A DNA stretch of 41,581 nucleotides from a virus, in the IMG/VR virus record IMGVR_UViG_3300032284_002141, positions 1 to 41,581 of that record. The stretch is one strand, 5' to 3'. A program made the translations under genes and the position numbers. The notes beneath the pieces are model-generated. The model was not told the DNA's origin and ran no database searches. It was given only the letters and a program-made list of their open reading frames with translations. Positions 3-41,581 of this stretch are shown here, piece after piece. Position 1 is the first letter of the stretch. Each line of letters opens with the position of its first letter.

Positions 3-3000
3 AAGATATTGAATCAGAGCTTTGATACCATCAAGAGCACTGGGTTCACCGTGGTACGCAACGGTCCCAACTTCAAACTGGTTGCACTGGGCGGAGAAAT
101 GATAGGATTTGCACAGTTGAACATTGTGCAGTACGAACATGCTCTTATATTTGACAATACCACACTGTTCAACGACATCATCTACAAGCCTGAACTGGGT
201 AATAGACAATATCGATTGAAACTGATTGGTAGCAAAACTGGTTCGTGGAACGGACAACTGGATATTCCAGGATTTGTTTACAACAACAATTACATCAACG
301 AATGGCAAGCCGGGGTAGATTATCAGAAGGGTTCTTTGATAACCTACAAGAGCAACTACTACACAGCACTGCAAAATGTCAATGCCACAACAACTTTTGT
401 TGCCACCAACTGGCAACTGCTGAATGCTGATCAAATCAAGACTGGGCTGTTGGCCAACTTCAGCTACAATGCACAGCAGTTTGACAACATCTATGACATA
501 GATCATCAGCCGCGCAAGGCATCAATCAATCAATTCAGCAATGGCCTAATAGGATTCCGTGAACGTCAGTACCTGACTGACTTGGGATTAGACGTGGAAA
601 CACAGACCAAATTCTACCAAGGATTTATCAAACAAAAGGGATCAAAAAATGCAGTTGATGCCCTAAACACTGTTAAACTAAGTAACTTGGCCAGTAACAT
701 TGCCACCTACGAAGAATGGGGCATACGTGTTGGTGAATACGGATCAATCAACAGCAATGACTATTTGGAAATAGTACTTGACGAACAGAAGTTTAACTCA
801 GACCCTAGCACCTTTGTGTTGTTGAACACCGATGCCGTGGCCGATGATAAAATTGTTGGAGTACATCCAGAAGATTTATATCGCAGACCCAACAGCTACA
901 AAACCAACATCTTAACCAACAACACCGCACCAGCCGCAGATATTGCCCTGCCAATGACTGCTGGTTATGTTAACCTGGCCGACATCAACAATACTATTTT
1001 TGATCTTGCAACCTACAATAATTTGAATCCAATCTTGTCGTCGATTGGCAGTGGCTATACCATATGGGTAGCAAAAGACTTCAACAAAGAATGGAACGTA
1101 TTTAGAGTAAGCGAAACCAATAACATTGTCACCGGTGTGGCATATGGTCTTGGACAGCAGGCTTTGATAACCACCTACTACGATCATCATTTGGAATTCA
1201 GCGATGTTGTTGCCATTAAAAACTTTGACGCAGCATTCAACGGATTCTATCAAGTACTCACAGTAGTTGATGCCAAGTCATTCTATGTGACACTGAGTTC
1301 AAGCAACAGTTTGCTGTTGCAAAAAGAAAAAACAGTGACCGGCAGTGGCCTACTGTACAAGCTGACCAGCTCACGTGGTACCAGTGCATTTGATGTTATT
1401 GCCAACCATATTCCTCCCAACGAGTGGCGTACTGGAGACATTGTGTGGGCCGACAACGAATTTGGCACCGGACAATGGGGCACATATAGAAAAGAATTGA
1501 CCTGGGCCAATGATGGAAAAATGGCACAGTTCCCCGGTGATTATTCAACTCACAGTCAATATGGCGCCGCAGTGGCACTGAATCAAACTGCTACCCTGGC
1601 TGCGGTTGGTGCTCCGTTGAATGGAACTGGTACTGTAAAAGTGTTTTACAGAGGCACTGACGCAAAGTTCTTTGAACAGTCTACTAGCCTTGATGCCACT
1701 ATGTCATCGTCAGTTGGAAACACCATGGCATTTGGCTCCACTGTTGACATTGGAGATCAACGCATACTGGTAGGTGCACCTGGTGCAGCCGACAGCCAAG
1801 GCTTGGTTTTTGTATATGACAGAAGCGTGGACAAAGATAAACAAATACCTTTCATCATTCAAGCACCTGACGGTGCTGCTGGCGACAGATTTGGCAGCAG
1901 TATTTCTATCAGCAAAGATGATCGTTGGATTTATGTGGGTGCTCCCGACGCTAATTCTGCACATGGCAGTGTGTATGCTTATCGCTACATAGACGGTTCC
2001 ACAGTGGAATCTGTTGTTGGCGCCATGGTTGCCAATCAGCCATACACTATTAAATCTGCAGGCACCACTGACTTTACATTGTTGGGTGCGCCAAACAACA
2101 CAGCAGGCACCAAGTTTTTTGCCACCGGCTCAGGCAATGTGTCTGTTGGAGAATTTGTAGTTGGAAAATCTTATACCATTACATCTGTAGGCGACACAGA
2201 CTTTACACAACTAGGCGCACCTGCCAGCACGATAGGTACAGTGTTTACAGCAACTGCCAATGGTGTGGTCAGTTCGGGGCACTTTGTGTCGGGCAAAAAA
2301 TACAAGATTGCCACGGTGGGAACAACCAACTTTGCCAACATTGGCAGTTTTGCCAGCGCAAACTTCACAGGTAATATTTCTATCGACATATTGACAGTGA
2401 GTTCAATCTCTCATGGCACCATATACGAAGGTGCAGTGATCAGTGGACATGGAGTGATTCCAGGTACCTATATCAAAGGACAGATAACAGGTGTTCCTGG
2501 CAACACAGGTGACTACTATGTGAGCCATTCTTACGAAGGACAAGAAGTAGCACCAACAGCAATGATTGCACAACCAACAGTGGGCACTGTATTCACAGCC
2601 AATACCGGAGTTCAAGTTGGTACAGGTACTGCTGTGCAAGGCACAGGAGCCGCAGTACAAGGCACTGGTATAATATACGGAACTCCTGCCTGTAAGTTTG
2701 ATATAACAACCAGCAACAGTTACAATCTTACCTTTACTCCTACCAGCATTGACGCCATAGTTGTTCGTGGCCAGCATGTGCGATATGTTGCAAATGTTGA
2801 CTACACACTGTCAGGATCAACACTGACATTTGTGACCAATCCAAGACTGGATCCCAATGGCAATTCTTTGGCTGATCATATCATAGTAACTGAGCCATCA
2901 CACTATGCACATGTGATCACTATCGAGCCAGACACATACGAACGAGGACTCTTTGGTTCGGCAATCAAGTCAACCACTGATGGTGAACAACTGGTCATTG

Positions 3001-6000
3001 GTATTCCACAAACTCATACAGAATCTGGACGTGCAGTGGTCTATGATCGTTTGAAAGAATCGTTTATTGCTGATGGTTATGCAAATACTTTTACCACACG
3101 CAGAGCAATACCAGCCAACGCCAAAGTCACAGTTGATGGTGCAGTGCAAATCAACAATGTTGACTACACTGTGATTGAGCAATCGGTGAGATTCAACAGC
3201 TCAGTTGCACAAGGTAAAATGGTGTCGGTGGACATCAATGAATTTAATAAAATACGTGAATTGCTATTAGATGATGCTGTGATTGGCGAGTTGTTTGGTA
3301 CAGCAGTGGACTACTGTAACAACAACTGCTCGATCTACATCGGAGCACCAGAATATCAAAACAACGACTATCGTTATGGTCGTGTGTTGCGATATGTAAA
3401 TCAAGGACGAATCTACGGTGTCATAACAGGCACAGTGGCAAACCCAACAGTGTCTGTGGGCGATAGCCTGCGTATCAACGGCATTGAAGTGGTGTTCACA
3501 GGAACCACAGTAGACCTAGTGGTCAGCGATATCAATAATGCATACATTCCCGGCATCACAGCCAGCGTTACAACAGCAAACAAGTTGAAGATCTCTTCTG
3601 ACGCCAAGATAACATACAAGGTCTTGGATATATTGCCGGGCACTGGCACAGCAGTTGCGGATCTTGGACTAGAAATATTTGCCTTGGTGCAAAGCGTCAC
3701 ACATCCTGCTGCCGCTGATAGCCAACGTTTTGGTGTAACAGTTCGTGTCACAGACACTGCTGGCACAGTGATGATTGGCAGCTCAGGTGCTGACACAAAG
3801 AAACTGGCCAACATTGATCAAGGCATGTTGACATTTGATCAAGACACCACTAGATTCCTTGACACAGCTAGAAATTCTGGCACAGTATACGTTTACGATT
3901 ATCTTGCCCGCCCAGATGACACAGTGACCACTCCAGGCCAACTGGTGTTTGCACAGCAAATGAGCCCCAGCGTGTATTCTACAGGTATCAACTTTGGTGC
4001 CAGCCTTGACGCCAAGAATGGATATGCTGTGATCGGAGCACCAACCGACAGCGGAGTGCTGTCGTTTGCTGGTGAAGCCTATGTGTACACCAATCCTGGT
4101 AACCTAAAAGCCTGGCAGTTGATCAGACAAAGTGTTCCAAAAGTTGATCTTAAGAATCTGCTGAGAATGTTTGTGTACAGCAAAAAGACCAACGAAATAC
4201 AATCCAATTTGGATTTCTACGATCCTGCCAAAGGCAAGATACTGGGCATTGCTGAACAAGAATTAGATTACATCAGCAGCTACGATCCTGCACAATACAA
4301 CTCCAACAATCCACAGATTGACACAGTGTATCCGCAGACATCATCAGATCCACGCAATGCATACAAATTTGTGTATGTTGGCACCGTGGCTGCCTGGGGT
4401 GAACAACAAGTTGGACAACTGTGGTGGAACCTGGATGCAGTTCGTTACATTGACTACGAACAAGATTCCTTGGTGTATAGAAGCAGAAACTGGGGCGCTA
4501 TGTTCCCTGGATCAAAGATTGAAATATGCGAATGGATCGAGAGTGACCTACCACCTGCATCATACACTGGTCCCGGCACAGTCAAGTACACTGACGGTAC
4601 TCAATACTCATTGAGCTACTATGTTGACAACACTGGTGTGGTGCGTACCAAGTACTATTTCTGGGTGCTGAACAAAAATGTCAGCAATGTGCTGACAGCA
4701 CACAAGAACAGAAGCGCATACGAAATTGCCAACATCATTCAGTATCCACAGACTTCTGGTGTTGCTTATGCTGCGGCTGTTAGAGATGATGCATTCAATC
4801 TCTACGGCATTGGTAATTATCTAAGTGGCACCAACTCTGTACTGCAATTAAACTACAGTCTGGTTGACAATCAAAATATCATACACAGTGAATATGAGCT
4901 GGTCAAAGAAGGCAGCGATCAAAGCGTTATACCATCAAAAGTCATCAGCAAATTGGTTGATAGTTTGGTGGGAACCACGGTGGATGGGTACATGGTACCA
5001 GATCCTAGACTGCCAGAAAATCAGAAGACTGGTATTGATACACGCCCACGCCAGAGCATGTTCAAAGACAGAATAACTGCTTTGAAGAATTTTGTGCAGT
5101 ATGTTAACACAGTGTTTGCAACAACACCTGTGGTACTGGAATTCAACAACAACAAGTTTTATAAGGCCGCTCCATATCCTCCAGCTGAGTCTGGAGCATG
5201 GGATATCAAAATTGAATACTACGAAGACCTGGACTACATTGACAAAAATTTATTGCCTATAGGATACAAAATTCTAGTGACCACAGACACACGTCAAGAT
5301 CAGTTGTGGACCATCAACGAGTTAGATGCTGCCAAGCAATTCAATATCATACAAGTGCAGGCATATCGCACAGATAGATATATTACACAAGTTGACTGGT
5401 ACGATGCTGCATTTGATTCTACTCAACAGATTACCTACATCACCGACGACTTGAATGCAGTAGAAAAACTGTCAGTGTCTGCTGGTGATGTAATACGAGT
5501 CAACAACGAAGGATCAGGACGCTTTGCATATTACACAGTGGCTGCAGATTTATCTTTGACCTTGGTTGGTCTGCAAAACGGAACTATACAAATTTCTGAA
5601 GCCTTGTACAACAGTCTAGTGGATCATTCCGCATTTGACGACATTGAATTTGACAGTGGCAGATTTGACGAAACTCCCAATGAGGAAATCAGAAACATCT
5701 TCATGGCAGTGTACGAAGACATCTTTATCAAGAACCTGTCAGCAGAATTCAACAACTTGTTCTTTAACCTGGTGAACTATGTGTTGACTGAACAACATGC
5801 AGTGGACTGGATCTTCAAATCAAGTTTCATCACAGTGCTTCATAAAATTAGAAAATTGGGACAATTCCCTAACTTTGTGAGAGACAATCAAACCTACTAC
5901 GAAGACTACATCAATGAAGTCAAGCCTTACCGCACACAGGTAAGAGAATACCTCCTGGACTACGAAGGCTTAGACACATTTGGTGGCAATGTTACTGACT

Positions 6001-8444
6001 TTGACTTGTCGTCGTACTACAACAAGAACAACGGCTCGTTCTACAGCCCAACAGTGAGTGACTTGTCCAACGCTACTTTCTTGGCCACATTGCCCTCAGG
6101 ATTGAAACAGCAGTACAGCTACTGGTACAACAACTACACATTCCAAGTTTCTGGAATTGAAATCACGGATCCCGGGGTCAATTACACTGTGGCTCCTAGT
6201 GTGACCTTGGTTGGTGGCGGTGGTACAGGTGCCACTGCTGTGGCTGCTATTGATTATGCCAACAACACAATCAGTAGCATACAAATAACCAATCCTGGTA
6301 AGAATTACACCAGCACACCAACTGTGGTAATCAACGGCAACGGCAGCAGAACCACCGGGGCAAACATTGTGCTGACCGTTAACGCAGGTTCAATCACTTC
6401 TGCTTATATTGCAGATGCAGGCTCAGGATTCACACAGGCACCAAGAATCTTTGTTGTTGGTGATGGTATAGGTGCAAACATAGTCTGTAACATCAACTCA
6501 GAAACTGGCACAATCAGCAATGTTACCATCAACAGTGGCGGCTCCAACTTCAGCAGAGCCAATGCTGTGGTAGCAGACATCAATTCTACTGCTACGGCTA
6601 GAGCTGTTATAAACAATGTTTACTACAAGAGCAATCCAGCAGACAGCTACAACACAGTTAGAAATATTCGCAGCCACATGAAGTTTGATAGAATCAGCTA
6701 CACTTCAAATGTACAGCAGTGGTCAGCCAATGCAGTATACCATACCGGTGACACCGTCAGCTATGCCAGCGATGCATGGAGAGCAACATCAACTGTGTAT
6801 CCATCTGCTAGACTGGCCTTGAGCGGAAATATTTCTGTGGCACAAGGTACCATGTTAGGTATCTTGAACTCTTCAGGCCGCGCCAACGTAGAAATGTCTG
6901 CCACATTGTCTAATGTGATCACTGTTGGCAACACTGTTGGCACATTACAAGGTGGTACCACATCTTGGTTGTATCAATTGGATCCTGCTACTCACAGCTT
7001 TACTACTAACCTTGGTGTACGAGTATTCAAAGTAACATCAGTATTTGATGTTACCAAATATGATGCTCTAAGTCCCGAAGACTTTGACAATGCCAATGAT
7101 CGTACCATGGGTTACTACACACCAGGCGCTGGCATGATCGCCAAAGATCTTCCGCAGATTTTCAGCGGCATTGAATACCCCGGAGTTAAAGTAACAGGTC
7201 CAGCATTTGATTCTAACATTGCATTGACAACCGATGTGTTGGAATTCTTTGCTGCAAATTCTACCATACACACCACAGATATTGCATCGTTTAACTTTAC
7301 CAGCATAGACATGCCGTTGAATGCCAATGTCAAGATCACAGGATCTGCACACAATGATGGATATTGGATTGTGAACATTGTGAACGACAATCGTATTGTG
7401 GTGCGTAACGAGCAAAATACGCTGTTGGCCAACGAGCCAGCTGGCAGTTTGATCACGGTCACATACTACAATCAAAATAACCCTAGCTATTTGGATTCAA
7501 CAATCCAAAGTGAATACCTTGACACAGCACTAGGCACCAGACCTGAAGACATCAACGTTGATGGCGGTGCTTATGTTGATAGATTCAGCAGTCATGCTCC
7601 TGAAGAGTTGGTACCTGGCAGAGTATATGATCACTTGAACATGCAGGTATGGACCACATTGGAATCATCTGCCAACGTTGGCTATCGTATCACACACGGC
7701 ATGAACTCTAACGTGGCAGCTACAGACAGCAGATTGTTGCCGCAGTATCATAGAATTACCACAGCCAACACCACAGTGTTGACACATGCTCTGTTGGCAA
7801 CTGATACCAACATACGTGTTGCAGATGCCAGTGTGCTTGGTTATCCCAGCAGAGAAAATGCCAACCCAGGCATAATCTATGTGAACGGTGAAAAGATTTA
7901 CTATTACAGAAATCTACTGTCTGAGATTATACCTTGGCAAGCAACATCAACTCAATTGGCAGAAACCAATGCTACGGGTCATATGTACAAACCAGATGAG
8001 CCCAAGAACGCTGCTTACACAGAAACAACTTTGGCAATGTACGCCGAAGATGCTGTTGTCAGCTACGAAGGCCAGATATACAGAGCTACTGGTAACATCA
8101 GTGGACTGACCTTTAACTTTGCCAACGTTGTGGTATTTGATCCAAACGTGCTTGAACAGATAACTAGAGGTGTTGACGGCACAGGAATAGCCATGGAACA
8201 TGCTGTGGGTACCGGAGTAGTTGATGCCAGCTTGGATCAACGATTGCCAGGTAATGTGTTTGCCACACACACCAGCACATGGTTAAACATGATTGACGAC
8301 ATGTCCGACGGCACTGGACTAGATGGTAGTACAACTCCACAGGCAGTGTTTATCAAAGCACAGGTACCACCACCAATCCCATCTTGGGATAATGCCCTGT
8401 ACCCCGAAGACAAAGAACCTCCAGTTAAGTCGCCAACACCGTAA
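3..8444 (+). CDS. giant virion structural protein with interrupted FG-GAP beta-propeller, 5' partial
   Basis: The frame is open at the left edge (codons run in from base 3), so the 5' end lies outside and the in-frame TTG at base 9 need not be the start. About 2.8 thousand residues are visible. Numbering from that TTG: a chitin-binding-type-3/CBM5-like segment (W..GVDYQKGSLITYKSNYY) near residue 100; seven FG-GAP/integrin-alpha-like blades (FG..V....ILVGAP..., ending in VYDR/VYT) near 520, 575, 630, 980, 1095, 1240 and 1330; between blades 3 and 4 a module repeated three times (YTI.S.G.TDFT.LGAP) near 676-780; a PG.NYT..P.V repeat near 2050-2190; and a second CBM-like segment near 2238. Established: FG-GAP repeats fold as seven-bladed propellers and such giants occur in marine T4-like virions. 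Inference: a baseplate- or tail-associated adhesin, because it precedes the fibre genes. Exact role unknown. Confidence 0.75.
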   Translation, partial: KILNQSFDTIKSTGFTVVRNGPNFKLVALGGEMIGFAQLNIVQYEHALIFDNTTLFNDIIYKPELGNRQYRLKLIGSKTGSWNGQLDIPGFVYNNNYINEWQAGVDYQKGSLITYKSNYYTALQNVNATTTFVATNWQLLNADQIKTGLLANFSYNAQQFDNIYDIDHQPRKASINQFSNGLIGFRERQYLTDLGLDVETQTKFYQGFIKQKGSKNAVDALNTVKLSNLASNIATYEEWGIRVGEYGSINSNDYLEIVLDEQKFNSDPSTFVLLNTDAVADDKIVGVHPEDLYRRPNSYKTNILTNNTAPAADIALPMTAGYVNLADINNTIFDLATYNNLNPILSSIGSGYTIWVAKDFNKEWNVFRVSETNNIVTGVAYGLGQQALITTYYDHHLEFSDVVAIKNFDAAFNGFYQVLTVVDAKSFYVTLSSSNSLLLQKEKTVTGSGLLYKLTSSRGTSAFDVIANHIPPNEWRTGDIVWADNEFGTGQWGTYRKELTWANDGKMAQFPGDYSTHSQYGAAVALNQTATLAAVGAPLNGTGTVKVFYRGTDAKFFEQSTSLDATMSSSVGNTMAFGSTVDIGDQRILVGAPGAADSQGLVFVYDRSVDKDKQIPFIIQAPDGAAGDRFGSSISISKDDRWIYVGAPDANSAHGSVYAYRYIDGSTVESVVGAMVANQPYTIKSAGTTDFTLLGAPNNTAGTKFFATGSGNVSVGEFVVGKSYTITSVGDTDFTQLGAPASTIGTVFTATANGVVSSGHFVSGKKYKIATVGTTNFANIGSFASANFTGNISIDILTVSSISHGTIYEGAVISGHGVIPGTYIKGQITGVPGNTGDYYVSHSYEGQEVAPTAMIAQPTVGTVFTANTGVQVGTGTAVQGTGAAVQGTGIIYGTPACKFDITTSNSYNLTFTPTSIDAIVVRGQHVRYVANVDYTLSGSTLTFVTNPRLDPNGNSLADHIIVTEPSHYAHVITIEPDTYERGLFGSAIKSTTDGEQLVIGIPQTHTESGRAVVYDRLKESFIADGYANTFTTRRAIPANAKVTVDGAVQINNVDYTVIEQSVRFNSSVAQGKMVSVDINEFNKIRELLLDDAVIGELFGTAVDYCNNNCSIYIGAPEYQNNDYRYGRVLRYVNQGRIYGVITGTVANPTVSVGDSLRINGIEVVFTGTTVDLVVSDINNAYIPGITASVTTANKLKISSDAKITYKVLDILPGTGTAVADLGLEIFALVQSVTHPAAADSQRFGVTVRVTDTAGTVMIGSSGADTKKLANIDQGMLTFDQDTTRFLDTARNSGTVYVYDYLARPDDTVTTPGQLVFAQQMSPSVYSTGINFGASLDAKNGYAVIGAPTDSGVLSFAGEAYVYTNPGNLKAWQLIRQSVPKVDLKNLLRMFVYSKKTNEIQSNLDFYDPAKGKILGIAEQELDYISSYDPAQYNSNNPQIDTVYPQTSSDPRNAYKFVYVGTVAAWGEQQVGQLWWNLDAVRYIDYEQDSLVYRSRNWGAMFPGSKIEICEWIESDLPPASYTGPGTVKYTDGTQYSLSYYVDNTGVVRTKYYFWVLNKNVSNVLTAHKNRSAYEIANIIQYPQTSGVAYAAAVRDDAFNLYGIGNYLSGTNSVLQLNYSLVDNQNIIHSEYELVKEGSDQSVIPSKVISKLVDSLVGTTVDGYMVPDPRLPENQKTGIDTRPRQSMFKDRITALKNFVQYVNTVFATTPVVLEFNNNKFYKAAPYPPAESGAWDIKIEYYEDLDYIDKNLLPIGYKILVTTDTRQDQLWTINELDAAKQFNIIQVQAYRTDRYITQVDWYDAAFDSTQQITYITDDLNAVEKLSVSAGDVIRVNNEGSGRFAYYTVAADLSLTLVGLQNGTIQISEALYNSLVDHSAFDDIEFDSGRFDETPNEEIRNIFMAVYEDIFIKNLSAEFNNLFFNLVNYVLTEQHAVDWIFKSSFITVLHKIRKLGQFPNFVRDNQTYYEDYINEVKPYRTQVREYLLDYEGLDTFGGNVTDFDLSSYYNKNNGSFYSPTVSDLSNATFLATLPSGLKQQYSYWYNNYTFQVSGIEITDPGVNYTVAPSVTLVGGGGTGATAVAAIDYANNTISSIQITNPGKNYTSTPTVVINGNGSRTTGANIVLTVNAGSITSAYIADAGSGFTQAPRIFVVGDGIGANIVCNINSETGTISNVTINSGGSNFSRANAVVADINSTATARAVINNVYYKSNPADSYNTVRNIRSHMKFDRISYTSNVQQWSANAVYHTGDTVSYASDAWRATSTVYPSARLALSGNISVAQGTMLGILNSSGRANVEMSATLSNVITVGNTVGTLQGGTTSWLYQLDPATHSFTTNLGVRVFKVTSVFDVTKYDALSPEDFDNANDRTMGYYTPGAGMIAKDLPQIFSGIEYPGVKVTGPAFDSNIALTTDVLEFFAANSTIHTTDIASFNFTSIDMPLNANVKITGSAHNDGYWIVNIVNDNRIVVRNEQNTLLANEPAGSLITVTYYNQNNPSYLDSTIQSEYLDTALGTRPEDINVDGGAYVDRFSSHAPEELVPGRVYDHLNMQVWTTLESSANVGYRITHGMNSNVAATDSRLLPQYHRITTANTTVLTHALLATDTNIRVADASVLGYPSRENANPGIIYVNGEKIYYYRNLLSEIIPWQATSTQLAETNATGHMYKPDEPKNAAYTETTLAMYAEDAVVSYEGQIYRATGNISGLTFNFANVVVFDPNVLEQITRGVDGTGIAMEHAVGTGVVDASLDQRLPGNVFATHTSTWLNMIDDMSDGTGLDGSTTPQAVFIKAQVPPPIPSWDNALYPEDKEPPVKSPTP

Positions 8445-21724: not shown

Positions 21725-22345
21725 ATGATCATTGGCATTTCAGGATTCATTGGCAGCGGCAAAGACACAGCCGCAAACTACTTGGTAGGCTTTCACGGAT
21801 TTAGACGCGACAGCTTTGCAGGCGCACTCAAAGATGCAGTGGCCGCTGTGTTTGGGTGGGACAGAGAACTCTTAGAGGGCTTGACTCCCGAAGCACGAGC
21901 CTGGCGCGAACAAGTAGATCCATGGTGGGCAGAACGCTTAAACATGCCCACCTTAACTCCACGTTGGGTATTGCAGTATTGGGGCACAGAAGTTTGCCGT
22001 CACGGATTCCACGATGACATCTGGATTGCCGCACTTGAAAATAGACTGAATCGACGCACAGATCACACTGTTATCAGCGATGTACGTTTCCCCAATGAAA
22101 TCCGATCAATCAAACGTGCTGGCGGCAAGATCATATGGGTGCAACGTGGGGAACTGCCTTGGTGGCACGACATTGCAGTCAAAGCCAATGCTGGTAACCT
22201 AGATGCACAGCAAGTGTTACGATCACACAATATTCATGCTAGCGAAACAGCTTGGGTTGGCACAGAGTTTGATCACGTTATTGACAACAACAGGTCTGTT
22301 GAGTTTATGTATGCAGACCTCAAAAATCTGGTAGCAACGGACTAG
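21725..22345 (+). CDS. deoxynucleoside monophosphate kinase (gp1-like)
   Basis: A P-loop opens the protein: MIIGISGFIGSGKDTAANYL (G7-x4-G12-K13-D14-T15). F-A-G-A-L-K-D-A-V-A follows, as in T4 dNMP kinase (QLAGPIKDALAY), then LTPRWVLQYWGTEVCRHGFH (compare RRLMQALGTDL), a W-I-A-A-L segment and VISDVRFPNEIRSIKRAGGK with the Walker-B-like D-V-R-F-P-N-E motif. It would phosphorylate dNMPs to dNDPs for phage DNA synthesis in the cytoplasm. 206 aa compares with 241 aa in T4. It starts immediately after the terminator T-run, so its expression probably needs the weak promoter at 21675 or read-through. It converges with the minus-strand zinc protein, overlapping by 26 bases. Confidence 0.85.
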   Translation: MIIGISGFIGSGKDTAANYLVGFHGFRRDSFAGALKDAVAAVFGWDRELLEGLTPEARAWREQVDPWWAERLNMPTLTPRWVLQYWGTEVCRHGFHDDIWIAALENRLNRRTDHTVISDVRFPNEIRSIKRAGGKIIWVQRGELPWWHDIAVKANAGNLDAQQVLRSHNIHASETAWVGTEFDHVIDNNRSVEFMYADLKNLVATD

Positions 22346-33311: not shown

Positions 33312-34127
33312 ATGAAAAAGTTTTTAGCATTAGTATTAACCTGTGTTGCTTTGTCGGCACAGGCCTGGACTCAACGTCCTCCGCAGGATCCGCAAACTTG
33401 TCGTGTGCATGCACCATACGGCTTTCCACAAACCGCAGGTGTGCAACCTATTTGCCGTCAGGCATATTTGGTTGGTTATGATGCTGCCGCCAAACTACCA
33501 AGGTATGTAACTTATGAACTATTACCTCAAAATGCTCTTGGCTGCGTTGCTCGCACTAATGCTTTTGCAGCTGATCAATCGGTGCCAGGAGGCGCTACTC
33601 CCGACGACTACGCCGCAACTGGCTACGACAAAGGGCACATGAGTCCTGATGGCGACCTGTCATGGGATCCACAGGTAGAGTACGAATCATTCCTGATGAC
33701 CAACATGAGCCCACAAGCTGGATCACTCAATCGCGGTATATGGAAATTGCTTGAAACTTCAGTTCGCGGATGGGCAGTTCAACGCAACCAAAGCTATACA
33801 GTTTATGTTGGCGGAATATACAATGCACAAGATCCCAAAATTGGTAAAGGTGTTGTAGTTCCACACGGCTTCTACAAAATTGTGATCAACAATCAAACCA
33901 ACGAAGCAGCTGGATGGGCATTCCCCCATGTCAAACCATATCCTAATTTGGGCAATGACCTGACCAAATTCCGACTGCCTATTGCACAGATCATGACTGC
34001 AGGCGGTGTTACATTTGCCTTCCCAGCTGGAATGAAAGAACTTGCACCTGGACAAGAATGGCCTGTGGACTTTGGTGCATTGACCAATGCCAAACGCAAA
34101 AAGTGCGGCGCCAACGCCACTGAATAA
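33312..34127 (+). CDS. secreted DNA/RNA non-specific endonuclease
   Basis: Residues 1-18 are a classic Sec signal peptide: MKK, a hydrophobic stretch and A-Q-A before Trp. The mature protein has the ββα-metal nuclease signature D106-K-G-H109-M-S-P (usual DRGH) and Asn140 (SLNRGIW) as the metal ligand, then a strand ...TVYVGGIY and VVVPHGFYKIVIN as in NucA/Serratia-type enzymes. Length (271 aa) is normal for the family. It should cut single- and double-stranded DNA and RNA with a divalent metal, in the periplasm or outside. It has a strong AAGGAGA site about 8 bases upstream. A TAATG overlap couples it to the next ORF. In a phage this might degrade incoming rival DNA in the periplasm or extracellular DNA; both are inferences. 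Confidence 0.88.
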   Translation: MKKFLALVLTCVALSAQAWTQRPPQDPQTCRVHAPYGFPQTAGVQPICRQAYLVGYDAAAKLPRYVTYELLPQNALGCVARTNAFAADQSVPGGATPDDYAATGYDKGHMSPDGDLSWDPQVEYESFLMTNMSPQAGSLNRGIWKLLETSVRGWAVQRNQSYTVYVGGIYNAQDPKIGKGVVVPHGFYKIVINNQTNEAAGWAFPHVKPYPNLGNDLTKFRLPIAQIMTAGGVTFAFPAGMKELAPGQEWPVDFGALTNAKRKKCGANATE

Positions 34128-37971: not shown

Positions 37972-38967
37972 ATGTTACCAGAGTGGGTAGGAACCAACCA
38001 AATTGGTCGTTGTCGTGTGCTGTACGGCGGATTCAATCCCGAATGGGCAGCAGGTCGGTTAGAACGCGAAACAGTGGACATGGCAGCAGCCTGCCTGTCA
38101 CAACAGTATCCTGATCAAACAACAGCAATAGTGGTACCAAATTGGTACGAACATCAGGCCGTGTTGGACTGGATCAATGTTGAACCGGCTGTGAAGATTC
38201 TGGTATGCAGTTTGACTGATCCGTTGAACAGCACAGCATGGCCCGACAACAGTGAACAATTTGGCTATACAGATTCAGGAATTCAATTTGATTTTTGGGC
38301 CGTGGCCTGCAACAAGTTTTTTCGACAATACCAACAGCAGGATCTACTGCCGCAACAGTTTGACTTTTTGTTTTTGAATTACAATCGCAAACCACACAGT
38401 CACAGAGTGGAGTTGGTAAAATCATTTGAACAGGCAGGCCTTATTGCATTGGGTTGTACAACGCTGGGCGGCTCCCGCTACACAGTGCATGATCTTGTTG
38501 AAGACTATCAAGATTCAGGAGCAAATGACATCATTGGTGACATTGGCATACCCAATGATATCTACAGCCTGGGACAACTGAGCATATGGCAACGAGCATT
38601 TGTGAACATAGTCAGCGAAACTCAATTTTCCAGTCACGGCACATTTCTCAGCGAAAAAACATTCAAACCCATAATTGGTCTGCGCCCCTTTGTCATAAAC
38701 GGCAATCCCAAAATATACACTTGGTTACAACAGGCCGGCTTTGATTGTTTTGAAGACCTATTTCCAGTACAGCAACTGATTCAATCCACTGATGTAGAAC
38801 ACAGTCATAAATTAATAGTAGACTCTGTGGCCCAACTCAGAGACCATGACTTGTTGGACCTTTACAACAAACTACTGCCTAGATTGATACATAACCAAAA
38901 ACATTTTTATGCCCACGCCAACAGTCAACACAATATATCAGATCATATCAAATCAAAACTTAGATAG
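37972..38967 (+). CDS. glycosyltransferase-like protein A
   Basis: 331 residues. LFLNYNRKPHSHRVELVKSF near 123-145 and, near the C-terminus, FVNIVSETQFSSHGTFLSEK followed by TFKPIIGLRPFVINGNPKIY form the pattern [IV]-V-S-E-T...[FL]-[ST]-E-K-T-x-K...PF...G, like the sugar-nucleotide-binding half of GT-B enzymes such as fucosyltransferases. LQQAGFDCFEDLF then matches 'L...GF..F'. The N-terminal part is loosely Rossmann-like (VLYGGFNPEWAAGRLE, TAIVVPNWYEHQAVLDW). No membrane segment. It is probably a cytoplasmic enzyme that adds a sugar to a surface polymer, DNA or protein; the acceptor is unknown. The paralog follows at once, overlapping its 3' end. Confidence 0.55.
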   Translation: MLPEWVGTNQIGRCRVLYGGFNPEWAAGRLERETVDMAAACLSQQYPDQTTAIVVPNWYEHQAVLDWINVEPAVKILVCSLTDPLNSTAWPDNSEQFGYTDSGIQFDFWAVACNKFFRQYQQQDLLPQQFDFLFLNYNRKPHSHRVELVKSFEQAGLIALGCTTLGGSRYTVHDLVEDYQDSGANDIIGDIGIPNDIYSLGQLSIWQRAFVNIVSETQFSSHGTFLSEKTFKPIIGLRPFVINGNPKIYTWLQQAGFDCFEDLFPVQQLIQSTDVEHSHKLIVDSVAQLRDHDLLDLYNKLLPRLIHNQKHFYAHANSQHNISDHIKSKLR

Positions 38968-39919
38968 TGTGTTCACACAAGTTGACGACCTGGTGTTTGT
39001 GAACCTGGACTGGTTAACAAATCGCAATCATCAATTTGAGGGAGTGAACGAATATCTATATACCATCAGTGGCTACAAACATTGTCGGTTGGTATTCTTG
39101 ATACGGGATGGCGTCAATCCCCGATTCACCGGCATGACCGAAATCATAAAACAAACCATAAGTGATCTTGAACTCACTGCTGAAACTTGTTTTGTGTACG
39201 GATACATGGACCTAGACATTGCCAACACCACATGGGTTCCATGTAACGCAGTGTCCATGTGGTCCAGTTTGATATACCCCATAATACAAGACCTACCATT
39301 GGCCAACAACGAGTTTGAGAAACATTTTGCAGGCATGTACGGACGAGCAGATCTATTTAGACTAAAATTGTACAAGCATCTTTCAAAACGCTACGCTGAT
39401 CAAAGTGTGCTGTGTTTCAATTCCAATTCAATTCAATACAATCACAGATTCCTCAAGCAGTTTGCCGATGACCAGGCATGGTTTGATCTGCGTGGCGGCT
39501 GTGTGATAGACTACGAGTCTGGTTACGGTTCAGTGTCATTCCAGTCGGCCATGCGTGACATACATCGTCATTATCAAACATATTTTTTAGAAGTGGTATC
39601 AGAGACCGATGTACACAGCAATCGATTCTTCACAGAAAAAACAGTAAAGAATTTTTATTTGGGCAAACCATTTTTGTTAATGAGTGGACAGCACAGTCTG
39701 GCATATCTGCACAGTCTGGGTTTCCGAACTTTCAGTCCATGGATAGATGAAAGCTACGATTCTTTGTCCAACTGTGGTGACAGGATAGCGGCAATTCTAA
39801 CTGAGATAAATCGTATCGGTCGATTGTCCATTCCCGAACTGCAACGATATCAGGCTGAAATGGATGGCATATTCCGGCACAACCGACAACGTTTTGTACA
39901 GATCAGTTTGGGAAAATAA
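38909..39919 (+). CDS. glycosyltransferase-like protein B (paralog of A)
   Basis: 336 residues if the first ATG is used, which overlaps gene A by 59 bases. A GTG at 38969, one base after A's stop, would shorten it by 20 residues and remove the overlap. The C-terminal third repeats the signature of A: FLEVVSETDVHSNRFFTEKT, NFYLGKPFLLMSGQHSLAYL and HSLGFRTFSPWIDESYDSL. The N-terminal two-thirds differ clearly from A. Established: the EVVSET...TEKT..........PF pattern marks a GT-B-like donor-binding domain. The two genes look like an ancient tandem duplication with different acceptors. Intergenic space before gp32 carries a composite promoter. Specific donor, acceptor and role cannot be read. 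Confidence 0.55.
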   Translation: MPTPTVNTIYQIISNQNLDSVFTQVDDLVFVNLDWLTNRNHQFEGVNEYLYTISGYKHCRLVFLIRDGVNPRFTGMTEIIKQTISDLELTAETCFVYGYMDLDIANTTWVPCNAVSMWSSLIYPIIQDLPLANNEFEKHFAGMYGRADLFRLKLYKHLSKRYADQSVLCFNSNSIQYNHRFLKQFADDQAWFDLRGGCVIDYESGYGSVSFQSAMRDIHRHYQTYFLEVVSETDVHSNRFFTEKTVKNFYLGKPFLLMSGQHSLAYLHSLGFRTFSPWIDESYDSLSNCGDRIAAILTEINRIGRLSIPELQRYQAEMDGIFRHNRQRFVQISLGK

Positions 39920-40026: not shown

Positions 40027-41028
40027 ATGGCAACATCTTTAGCAGAAATTCGTGCAAAACTACAAGCTCAACAAGGTCGCGGACAAGGCGGCGGCCAAAC
40101 TCAAGGCGATAACGCCATTTACGCTCACTGGAACATAACCGAAGGCTCAACAGCCCGAGTACGTTTCCTACCTGACGCAGACAACAAAAACCCATTCTTT
40201 TGGATCGAACGTGCAATGATCAAATTGCCATTTGCTGGTATCAAAGGCCAGTCAGACAGCAAGCCTACCATTGTACAAGTACCCTGTGTAGAAATGTGGG
40301 GCGATGCATGCCCTATTCTTGCAGAAGTACGTCCTTGGTTCAAAGACGCAACCTTGGAAGAAATGGGTCGTAAGTACTGGAAAAAGAAAAGCTACTTGTT
40401 CCAAGGCTTTGTTCGTGAGAACCCACTGGGCGATGACAAGACTCCGGAAAATCCAATCCGACGTTTCATCATCAGTCCACAGATCTTTAACTTGATTACC
40501 AATGCGTTAAAAGATCCTGACATGGAAAATATGCCAACTGACTACCAGAATGGCAGTGACTTCAGCATCAAGAAAACCAGCAAAGGTGGTTATGCTGACT
40601 ACAACACCAGCGGCTTTGCTCGCAAAGAGTCTGCGCTATCTAGTGCAGAACAAGCGGCAATCGATCAGTTTGGTTTGTATAACCTTGCTGACTTCTTGCC
40701 CAAGCGTCCCGGTGAAGTGGAACTGAAAGTTATCAAAGAAATGTTTGAAGCTTCAGTTGACGGACAGCCGTATGATCCAGATCGTTGGGGTCAATACTTC
40801 AAGCCTGCGGGCTTTGGCGGTAATGATCGCACAGACTCTGCACCAGCAGCCTCTGCGGCACCTGCTCCTAGAGCACCAGTGGCCGCTGCTCCGGTTAACG
40901 ACACTCCTCCATTTGATGTGGACGAAGATGACGCACCAGTCGCAACAGCACCAGTGGCAGCGCCAGCAAAGGTTCCTAGTCAAAAGGCCGAAGACATTCT
41001 TGCAATGATCCGAAACCGTAGCAAGTAA
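40027..41028 (+). CDS. gp32: single-stranded DNA-binding protein (gp32-like)
   Basis: 333 residues (T4 gp32: 301). A basic, Gln/Gly-rich N-terminal arm (LAEIRAKLQAQQGRG) for cooperative binding is followed by the OB-type core: HWNITEGSTARVRFLPDADN, VPCVEMWGDACPIL, YWKKKSYLFQGFVREN and RRFIISPQIFNLITNALKDP. A flexible Ala/Pro tail with acidic FDVDEDD near residue 300 is the partner-binding C-terminus. It coats ssDNA in replication, recombination and repair. Only two Cys are present (CVEMWGDAC), so the four-ligand zinc site of T4 gp32 (H, C, C, C) is not evident. Expression from a composite early/late promoter fits its need throughout infection. The stop is doubled (TAATAA) and overlaps a TAAATA motif. 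Confidence 0.93.
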   Translation: MATSLAEIRAKLQAQQGRGQGGGQTQGDNAIYAHWNITEGSTARVRFLPDADNKNPFFWIERAMIKLPFAGIKGQSDSKPTIVQVPCVEMWGDACPILAEVRPWFKDATLEEMGRKYWKKKSYLFQGFVRENPLGDDKTPENPIRRFIISPQIFNLITNALKDPDMENMPTDYQNGSDFSIKKTSKGGYADYNTSGFARKESALSSAEQAAIDQFGLYNLADFLPKRPGEVELKVIKEMFEASVDGQPYDPDRWGQYFKPAGFGGNDRTDSAPAASAAPAPRAPVAAAPVNDTPPFDVDEDDAPVATAPVAAPAKVPSQKAEDILAMIRNRSK

Positions 41029-41034
41029 TAAATA
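41027..41034 (+). promoter_or_regulatory. late-type promoter motif AATAAATA after gp32
   Basis: The motif starts in the gp32 stop codon (TAA, 41026-41028; a second TAA follows at once). It precedes the radical SAM gene by 33 bases. Confidence 0.5.
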
Positions 41035-41035
41035 T

Positions 41036-41060
41036 GAGGTGGGCTGGTCCCACCTCTATT
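41036..41060 (+). terminator. hairpin terminator after gp32
   Basis: GAGGTGGG-CTGGT-CCCACCTC: 8-bp perfect stem, five-base loop, followed by the T-rich TATTTCTCTC. Probable terminator, although the T-run is interrupted. Confidence 0.7.
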
Positions 41061-41067
41061 TCTCTCG

Positions 41068-41581
41068 ATGAGCTACAAAGAATTCAAAATACAAAGATTG
41101 GACGCAATAAGTCCATCATTCTGTGCAGTCAAATGGCTGCAATCGTCTTTTTATCTGCAGGTGGGCACTACCAGTAGCTGTTACTATCCTGCACCGCATC
41201 AAATCAATTTAGCAGATGCCAACAAAAACATTGGCATGTTCAACAACACCACAGAAAAGTTACAACAACGACAGCAGATGCTGTCAGGACAGCGTCCCAC
41301 TGAATGTGCCAACTGTTGGAACACTGAAGATGCTGATGTAGATTCTTTGTCTGACAGAATATTAGAAAGCTACGAATTTAGAGATCGTGACTTTACCGAG
41401 TTTGACACCGGCACTGACTATGTGCCAGCATCAATAACTGTGGGGTTTGATTCGCTTTGCAATTTTTCTTGTTCCTACTGCGATGATACTCAAAGTTCGT
41501 CATGGGCATCGGATCTAAGAGTCAACGGCATGTACCCCGGCATTGTTGGTGACCGTAGACAAACATATCAAGCACTAAAGA
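41068..41581 (+). CDS. radical SAM protein with N-terminal twitch-type cluster, 3' partial
   Basis: The reading frame from ATG 41068 stays open for 171 codons to the window edge. Residues 131-138 read C-N-F-S-C-S-Y-C, the radical SAM C-x3-C-x2-C [4Fe-4S] motif, at the start of a strand (ITVGFDSLCNF) as expected. Before it, FCAVKW (C19), SSCYYP (C38) and C80-A-N-C83-W, with MLSGQRPTECANCWNTED, match the N-terminal cysteine cluster of 'twitch domain-containing' radical SAM proteins: FC..PW.., a second Cys, then ML.G..P.EC..C...E. The enzyme would use SAM to make a radical and modify a peptide, sugar or metabolite; substrate unknown. There is no Shine-Dalgarno before the start. It lies just after the gp32 terminator with a late-type motif. 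The frame ends without a stop at the edge. Confidence 0.8.
   Translation, partial: MSYKEFKIQRLDAISPSFCAVKWLQSSFYLQVGTTSSCYYPAPHQINLADANKNIGMFNNTTEKLQQRQQMLSGQRPTECANCWNTEDADVDSLSDRILESYEFRDRDFTEFDTGTDYVPASITVGFDSLCNFSCSYCDDTQSSSWASDLRVNGMYPGIVGDRRQTYQALK

Follow-up and report, generated by a model that had tools for sequence, protein, structure and literature searches.

The last open reading frame of the window, by which we mean the whole stretch of DNA analysed (an entire IMG/VR record of 41,581 bp), was confirmed by sequence comparison as the start of a gene for a radical SAM enzyme of the N-terminal-twitch family NF033640. With a probability of about 0.5, this enzyme tailors a sugar or a similar small molecule for surface decoration, a substrate class suggested by the genes that surround its relatives. 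The gene would open an accessory cassette between gp32 and uvsX in what appears to be a PA5oct-like jumbo phage. The features of this end of the window are the following.

37972..38967, + strand: uncharacterised protein, with an EKT...RPF motif in common with the next gene (alignment A5; no Pfam match)
38909..39919, + strand: uncharacterised protein, TEKT...GKPF motif present (34 homologues among the loci fetched; neither Pfam nor PDB sequences matched)
40027..41028, + strand: gp32-like single-strand DNA-binding protein, the upstream neighbour (phrog_1192, E=1.3e-66; PF08804, 23.7 bits, cut-off 26.8)
41030..41061, + strand: terminator-like RNA hairpin between the gp32-like and radical SAM genes (-17 kcal/mol, z = -3.3)
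41068..41581, + strand: N-terminal-twitch radical SAM gene, first 171 codons (NF033640 match; 91% identity to L002:2-313)
41122..41316, + strand: ligands of the N-terminal twitch domain (in alignment A1, C80 and C83 do not vary, and conservation of C19 and C38 is 90% or more)
41122-41124, + strand: C19, twitch ligand
41179-41181, + strand: C38, twitch ligand
41305-41307, + strand: C80, twitch ligand
41314-41316, + strand: C83, twitch ligand
41458..41481, + strand: CX3CX2C motif (C131, C135, C138), predicted site of the SAM-cleaving [4Fe-4S] cluster (read from the sequence; no variation in alignments A1 and A2)

Sequence and family of the truncated gene

The frame starts with an ATG, without an obvious Shine-Dalgarno sequence upstream, and can be read to the contig end only, with no stop before it. 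The 171 residues contain exactly seven cysteines (19, 38, 80, 83, 131, 135 and 138), ordered C-x18-C-x41-C-x2-C and then C-x3-C-x2-C. Shuffling the fragment 20,000 times never reproduced this two-part order, and CX3CX2C by itself appeared in 0.7% of the shuffles. The NCBIfam model NF033640 (N_Twi_rSAM, twitch domain-containing radical SAM protein) matched the fragment with E=1.6e-28 and 99.9 bits, over profile positions 1-142 of 398. This score is below the curated whole-protein cut-off of 170 bits, as expected, because only about a third of the model is covered. The earlier note had described an open-ended radical SAM gene with a complete C-x3-C-x2-C motif, four upstream cysteines in a twitch-type order and a position directly after gp32, and all of these hold. 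Pfam and PHROGs searches of the fragment gave no match, and tblastn searches of 50,697 phage records with the window gene and with a full-length homologue, L031, matched nothing.

The barrel of the window copy would lie past the contig end, and its presence is taken from a relative on the viral contig L002, whose protein is 91% identical across the 104 shared residues. The L002 copy begins at residue 68 and ends with a stop at L002:1075. Despite the 67 absent N-terminal residues, it scores 193.2 bits against NF033640. It has an intact barrel (Pfam PF04055 Radical_SAM, 30.3 bits, cut-off 29.5) and carries the GGE motif. At the DNA level, 25 of 312 positions differ between the two copies, 12 of these 25 at third codon positions, and every cysteine is spared. 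A missing barrel or a frameshift, either of which had been named as reason to drop the assignment, was thus looked for in L002, where both the barrel and an intact frame were found. Therefore, the window gene is truncated and not a remnant. Scanning with the L002 protein yielded no other close relative.

Domain architecture and predicted fold

In alignment A1 (18 sequences), C80, C83, C131, C135 and C138 are invariant, C19 and C38 are nearly so, and the GGE motif is conserved. Conserved cysteines C-terminal to the barrel were not found in these sequences, which places the auxiliary-cluster domain at the N-terminus. In canonical SPASM/twitch enzymes this domain follows the barrel, and the window-type protein departs from that arrangement. 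Consequently, the twitch-type domain proposed earlier is present, yet it is N-terminal as in NF033640 and not C-terminal as in the canonical enzymes. A paralogue in the same relative (L002:3615-4772) has a Pfam SPASM match across the corresponding N-terminal stretch.

The seven cysteines appear arranged to hold two iron-sulfur clusters. By established radical SAM chemistry, S-adenosylmethionine is cleaved at the CX3CX2C cluster, and the resulting 5'-deoxyadenosyl radical takes a hydrogen atom from the substrate; a twitch cluster serves in electron transfer or substrate binding. Both the motif and the predicted fold are consistent with reductive SAM cleavage by a [4Fe-4S] cluster. The AlphaFold model of L031 (452 residues; pLDDT 91.9, pTM 0.90) found radical SAM enzymes as its best Foldseek matches in the PDB, namely SuiB, viperin, BlsE, MoaA and QueE. 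SuiB ranked first (E=1.5e-4), and the fold matches cover the superfamily core, with TM-scores of about 0.35. A profile search of the PDB returned TigE (2.8e-8), viperin (2e-5), MoaA (6e-5) and BlsE (1.5e-4).

With the twitch-type enzymes BtrN, BlsE and MoaA, which act on sugars or nucleotides, the family shares a radical SAM core, a single auxiliary-cluster module and profile matches to solved structures. It differs in that their auxiliary domain comes after the barrel, here before it, and identity is about 13%. With the peptide maturases SuiB, TigE and PqqE it shares the core and a SPASM-like auxiliary domain, and two of them, SuiB and TigE, rank near the top of the structure or profile matches. 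However, in these maturases the SPASM domain is C-terminal and holds two auxiliary clusters, and there is a precursor peptide; neither feature was found here.

Two narrower identities were tried and rejected. As a viperin (pVip), the NCBIfam scores were 15-35 bits against a cut-off of 180, and PADLOC matches were weak and partial. As QueE or MoaA, scores were at most 39 bits against family cut-offs of 231 or more.

The gp32-uvsX site and its cassette

Only 39 bp (41029-41067) separate the gp32-like gene from the radical SAM gene. In many relatives with UvsX next after gp32, a hairpin occupies the same spot as in the window, with an unrelated sequence; relatives with a cassette close behind gp32 have no hairpin there.

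In L002, the order is radical SAM, sulfotransferase-like, second radical SAM, oxygenase-like, SDR and third radical SAM gene, followed by UvsX. The window-type gene is the first of this cassette, ahead of the commonly found set. The usual cassette consists of a sulfotransferase-like gene, a second-type radical SAM gene (about 315 aa), an optional oxygenase-like gene, an SDR and a third-type radical SAM gene (about 385 aa), and then UvsX. Among 80 relatives retrieved with the gp32 protein, 22 have a sulfotransferase-like gene after gp32 as part of a cassette. Both gp32 and UvsX were present in 63 loci; they are adjacent in 23 of these and have an N-twitch radical SAM gene between them in 10. 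The cultured relatives Paride and Phosso lack the cassette: UvsX comes next after their gp32-like gene, and no radical SAM gene intervenes. The window stops before any partner gene, and the cassette in its phage is inferred by transfer from L002. As far as the open-access literature was searched, this cassette is undescribed.

Some of the cassette labels are to be read with care. The sulfotransferase-like protein has the motifs and weak Pfam matches (best E=0.0093), and its top 13 Foldseek matches are sulfotransferases or close kin (retinol dehydratase). This identity is a lead only, because every fold match has E>0.2. The 2-oxoglutarate oxygenase label of L002:2612-3088 comes from motif inspection only, and its Pfam search gave no match. 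In tblastn searches of the phage records, distant Vibrio phage genes were reached with the third cassette enzyme only, at about 20% identity.

A second insertion site was also observed, in which a diverged N-twitch radical SAM gene follows a small acidic gene downstream of UvsX. On its other flank is a conserved gene of 150 aa, or the contig ends just beyond (L081:15518-16774, L089, L098, L101, L108, L122, L129, L144 and L152).

The phage and its other genes

By its terminase (53%) and its gp32-like protein (54%), the window is nearest to the PA5oct/Paride group, which are Arenbergviridae of 284-288 kb, and to Sinorhizobium phage Phosso (469 kb). Therefore, the window is probably a fragment of a jumbo myovirus. 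The presence of genes for a tail sheath and for its stabiliser agrees with a myovirus.

The adjacent genes at 37972-38967 and 38909-39919 encode proteins of about 330 aa each with a common (S/T)EKT...(R/K)PF motif, which we take to be reminiscent of GT10-type glycosyltransferases. The Pfam search of both proteins and their homologues gave no match. Judged by this motif, the product of 38909-39919 is possibly a glycosyltransferase. Several of its homologues sit just upstream of gp32, and relatives of the gene pair occur upstream of gp32 elsewhere, sometimes with a 254-aa SGNH-hydrolase-like protein.

At the other end of the window, different parts of a giant frame of 2,813 aa (3-8444) gave PHROGs matches to a virion structural protein, a head-closure protein and a baseplate wedge subunit. 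Amid the structural genes are a deoxynucleotide monophosphate kinase-like gene (21725-22345, PF21448) and a DNA/RNA non-specific endonuclease (33312-34127, PF01223, E=4.8e-41).

Distribution of the family

N-twitch radical SAM genes occur in tandem runs in viral contigs, with a median gap of -8 bp over 181 neighbouring pairs. One run has eight consecutive genes on one strand, mostly overlapping (L007:6332-16507), and in another array a PaaD/SufT-like Fe-S assembly gene (PF01883, L017:7606-7941) lies directly between two radical SAM genes. The NF033640 search of 16 whole viral records found 22 matches in the L003 contig (G001, 242,646 bp), 17 of them above the cut-off. The L121 contig (261 kb), whose gp32 is 69% identical to that of the window, had 11 matches above the cut-off. 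None of 14 well-known control genomes searched with the same model had a match exceeding it. CX3CX2C is kept in 359 of 359 distinct full-size family members and the twitch order in 321 of them, so the copies are not generally dead.

The genome scan for homologues used the closer alignment A3. The cellular homologues come almost all from Bdellovibrionota assemblies, and some of these contigs may be misbinned phages. Relationships were read from an IQ-TREE quick tree of 82 rows, in which viral and cellular sequences are intermixed, so the genes have moved between viruses and cells. The phylogenetic placement that the earlier note proposed puts the window gene and L002 on a deep, long and isolated branch, whose exact position is unsure. 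Together the two resemble NF033640 members in the four-cysteine N-terminal twitch domain, CX3CX2C, the GGE motif and length, with L002 above the curated cut-off, but differ in their long branch and in sharing only 33-39% identity with the nearest full-length viral relatives. In the open-access literature we found no description of a substrate or function of this family.

Several radical SAM genes in one uncultured phage have been described before. A T4-like marine phage genome is reported to have 12 radical SAM genes together with Fe-S assembly genes (PMC5332604), a number that the L003 count exceeds, and pelagimyophages are reported to have radical SAM cassettes in a host recognition cluster (PMC7029224). 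The likeness is the presence of multiple radical SAM genes, accompanied by Fe-S assembly genes or placed in variable cassettes. In contrast, the gp32-uvsX site, the sulfotransferase-like/SDR cassette and PA5oct-like phages are not described in the consulted passages of these two papers.

Possible substrates

Peptides, nucleotides and sugars had all been suggested as substrates in the earlier note, together with a search for a small precursor peptide gene and sugar genes among the neighbours. No precursor gene was found beside the maturase-like genes in L002, in the other cassettes or in the window gap. The cassette genes overlap by 4-20 bp, typically 4 or 19 bp, and therefore leave no room for a small dedicated precursor peptide gene. 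The part of the suggestion that relied on a local peptide is thereby disfavoured. In the relatives, SDR, sulfotransferase-like, glycosyltransferase and nucleotidyltransferase-like neighbours lean towards sugar or other small-molecule chemistry. We rank sugar or other small-molecule tailoring first, protein or peptide second and nucleotide third.

The neighbours of the viral arrays include a carbamoyltransferase, mannose-6-phosphate isomerase, UDP-glucose/GDP-mannose dehydrogenase, a nucleotidyltransferase-like protein and Fe-S assembly proteins. Near the cellular homologues lie a group 1 glycosyltransferase, a DegT sugar aminotransferase, a carbamoyltransferase and polysaccharide-type ABC exporters, and a distant homologue in KVP40 is two genes from a PF00534 glycosyltransferase. 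With its SDR and sulfotransferase-like partners, the enzyme could oxidise, epimerise or otherwise tailor a sugar or other small molecule, which would then decorate the virion or the infected cell surface. The pelagimyophage cassettes in a host recognition cluster (PMC7029224) also speak for this reading. The site among replication genes does not itself point to surface sugars.

Modification of a peptide or protein is the strongest competitor, though we regard it as unlikely. The enzyme would alter a side chain of a phage or host protein encoded elsewhere, as SPASM-type RiPP maturases do. SuiB, a RiPP maturase, is the best Foldseek match and TigE the best PDB profile match, but the former reflects a superfamily core. 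Some cassettes include a small protein with oxygenase-like motifs. PqqD-family proteins recognise peptides in known RiPP pathways; they are encoded next to the homologues of L194 and L165, and such neighbours of some cellular homologues suggest peptide chemistry. In the phage cassette, however, neither PqqD nor another peptide-recognition domain was seen, and the overlaps there and in the tandem pairs leave no precursor space. Apart from this argument, the Bdellovibrionota loci L194:6333-10993, L189 and L165 have homologues beside a DegT aminotransferase, a carbamoyltransferase, PqqD and a second SPASM radical SAM gene, which looks like an uncharacterised biosynthetic cluster.

Nucleotide or DNA base modification, for example for shielding phage DNA, would fit a site among replication and recombination genes between gp32 and uvsX, and agrees with the weak core similarity to the nucleotide-acting MoaA, QueE and viperin. 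We consider it improbable, given that this similarity is generic to the superfamily and far under family cut-offs, that the cassette is without base-modification partner genes, and that related arrays elsewhere sit outside this site. A viperin-like enzyme producing chain-terminating nucleotides is very improbable: homologues have weak pVip matches (E=4.2e-5 to 6.6e-10), but the pVip search of the window fragment gave no match, NF033640 beats the viperin models by more than 150 bits on L002 and L031, and viperins are not known to have an N-terminal twitch domain. Just as hard to credit is a decayed remnant without function, since, although the frame is not traceable beyond the contig end, its 171 codons are open with all ligands kept, and the intact L002 copy, its spared cysteines and the motif's constancy in the family argue otherwise.

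Beyond the preferred reading, that the enzyme tailors a sugar or similar small molecule, a bolder and rather doubtful extension is that the cassette is a previously undescribed biosynthetic pathway. It would make a sulfated, radically modified sugar or peptide for the virion or host surface, and the radical SAM arrays of giant phages would be diversified versions of it.

Up to 17 genes above the cut-off for one oxygen-sensitive enzyme family on a single uncultured-phage contig exceed the need of any known single pathway. The gp32-uvsX cassette is compact and self-contained, at four to six genes, and lends itself to learning what these enzymes make. If its product is a surface glycan, the finding would have a bearing on phage-host recognition in water and soil.
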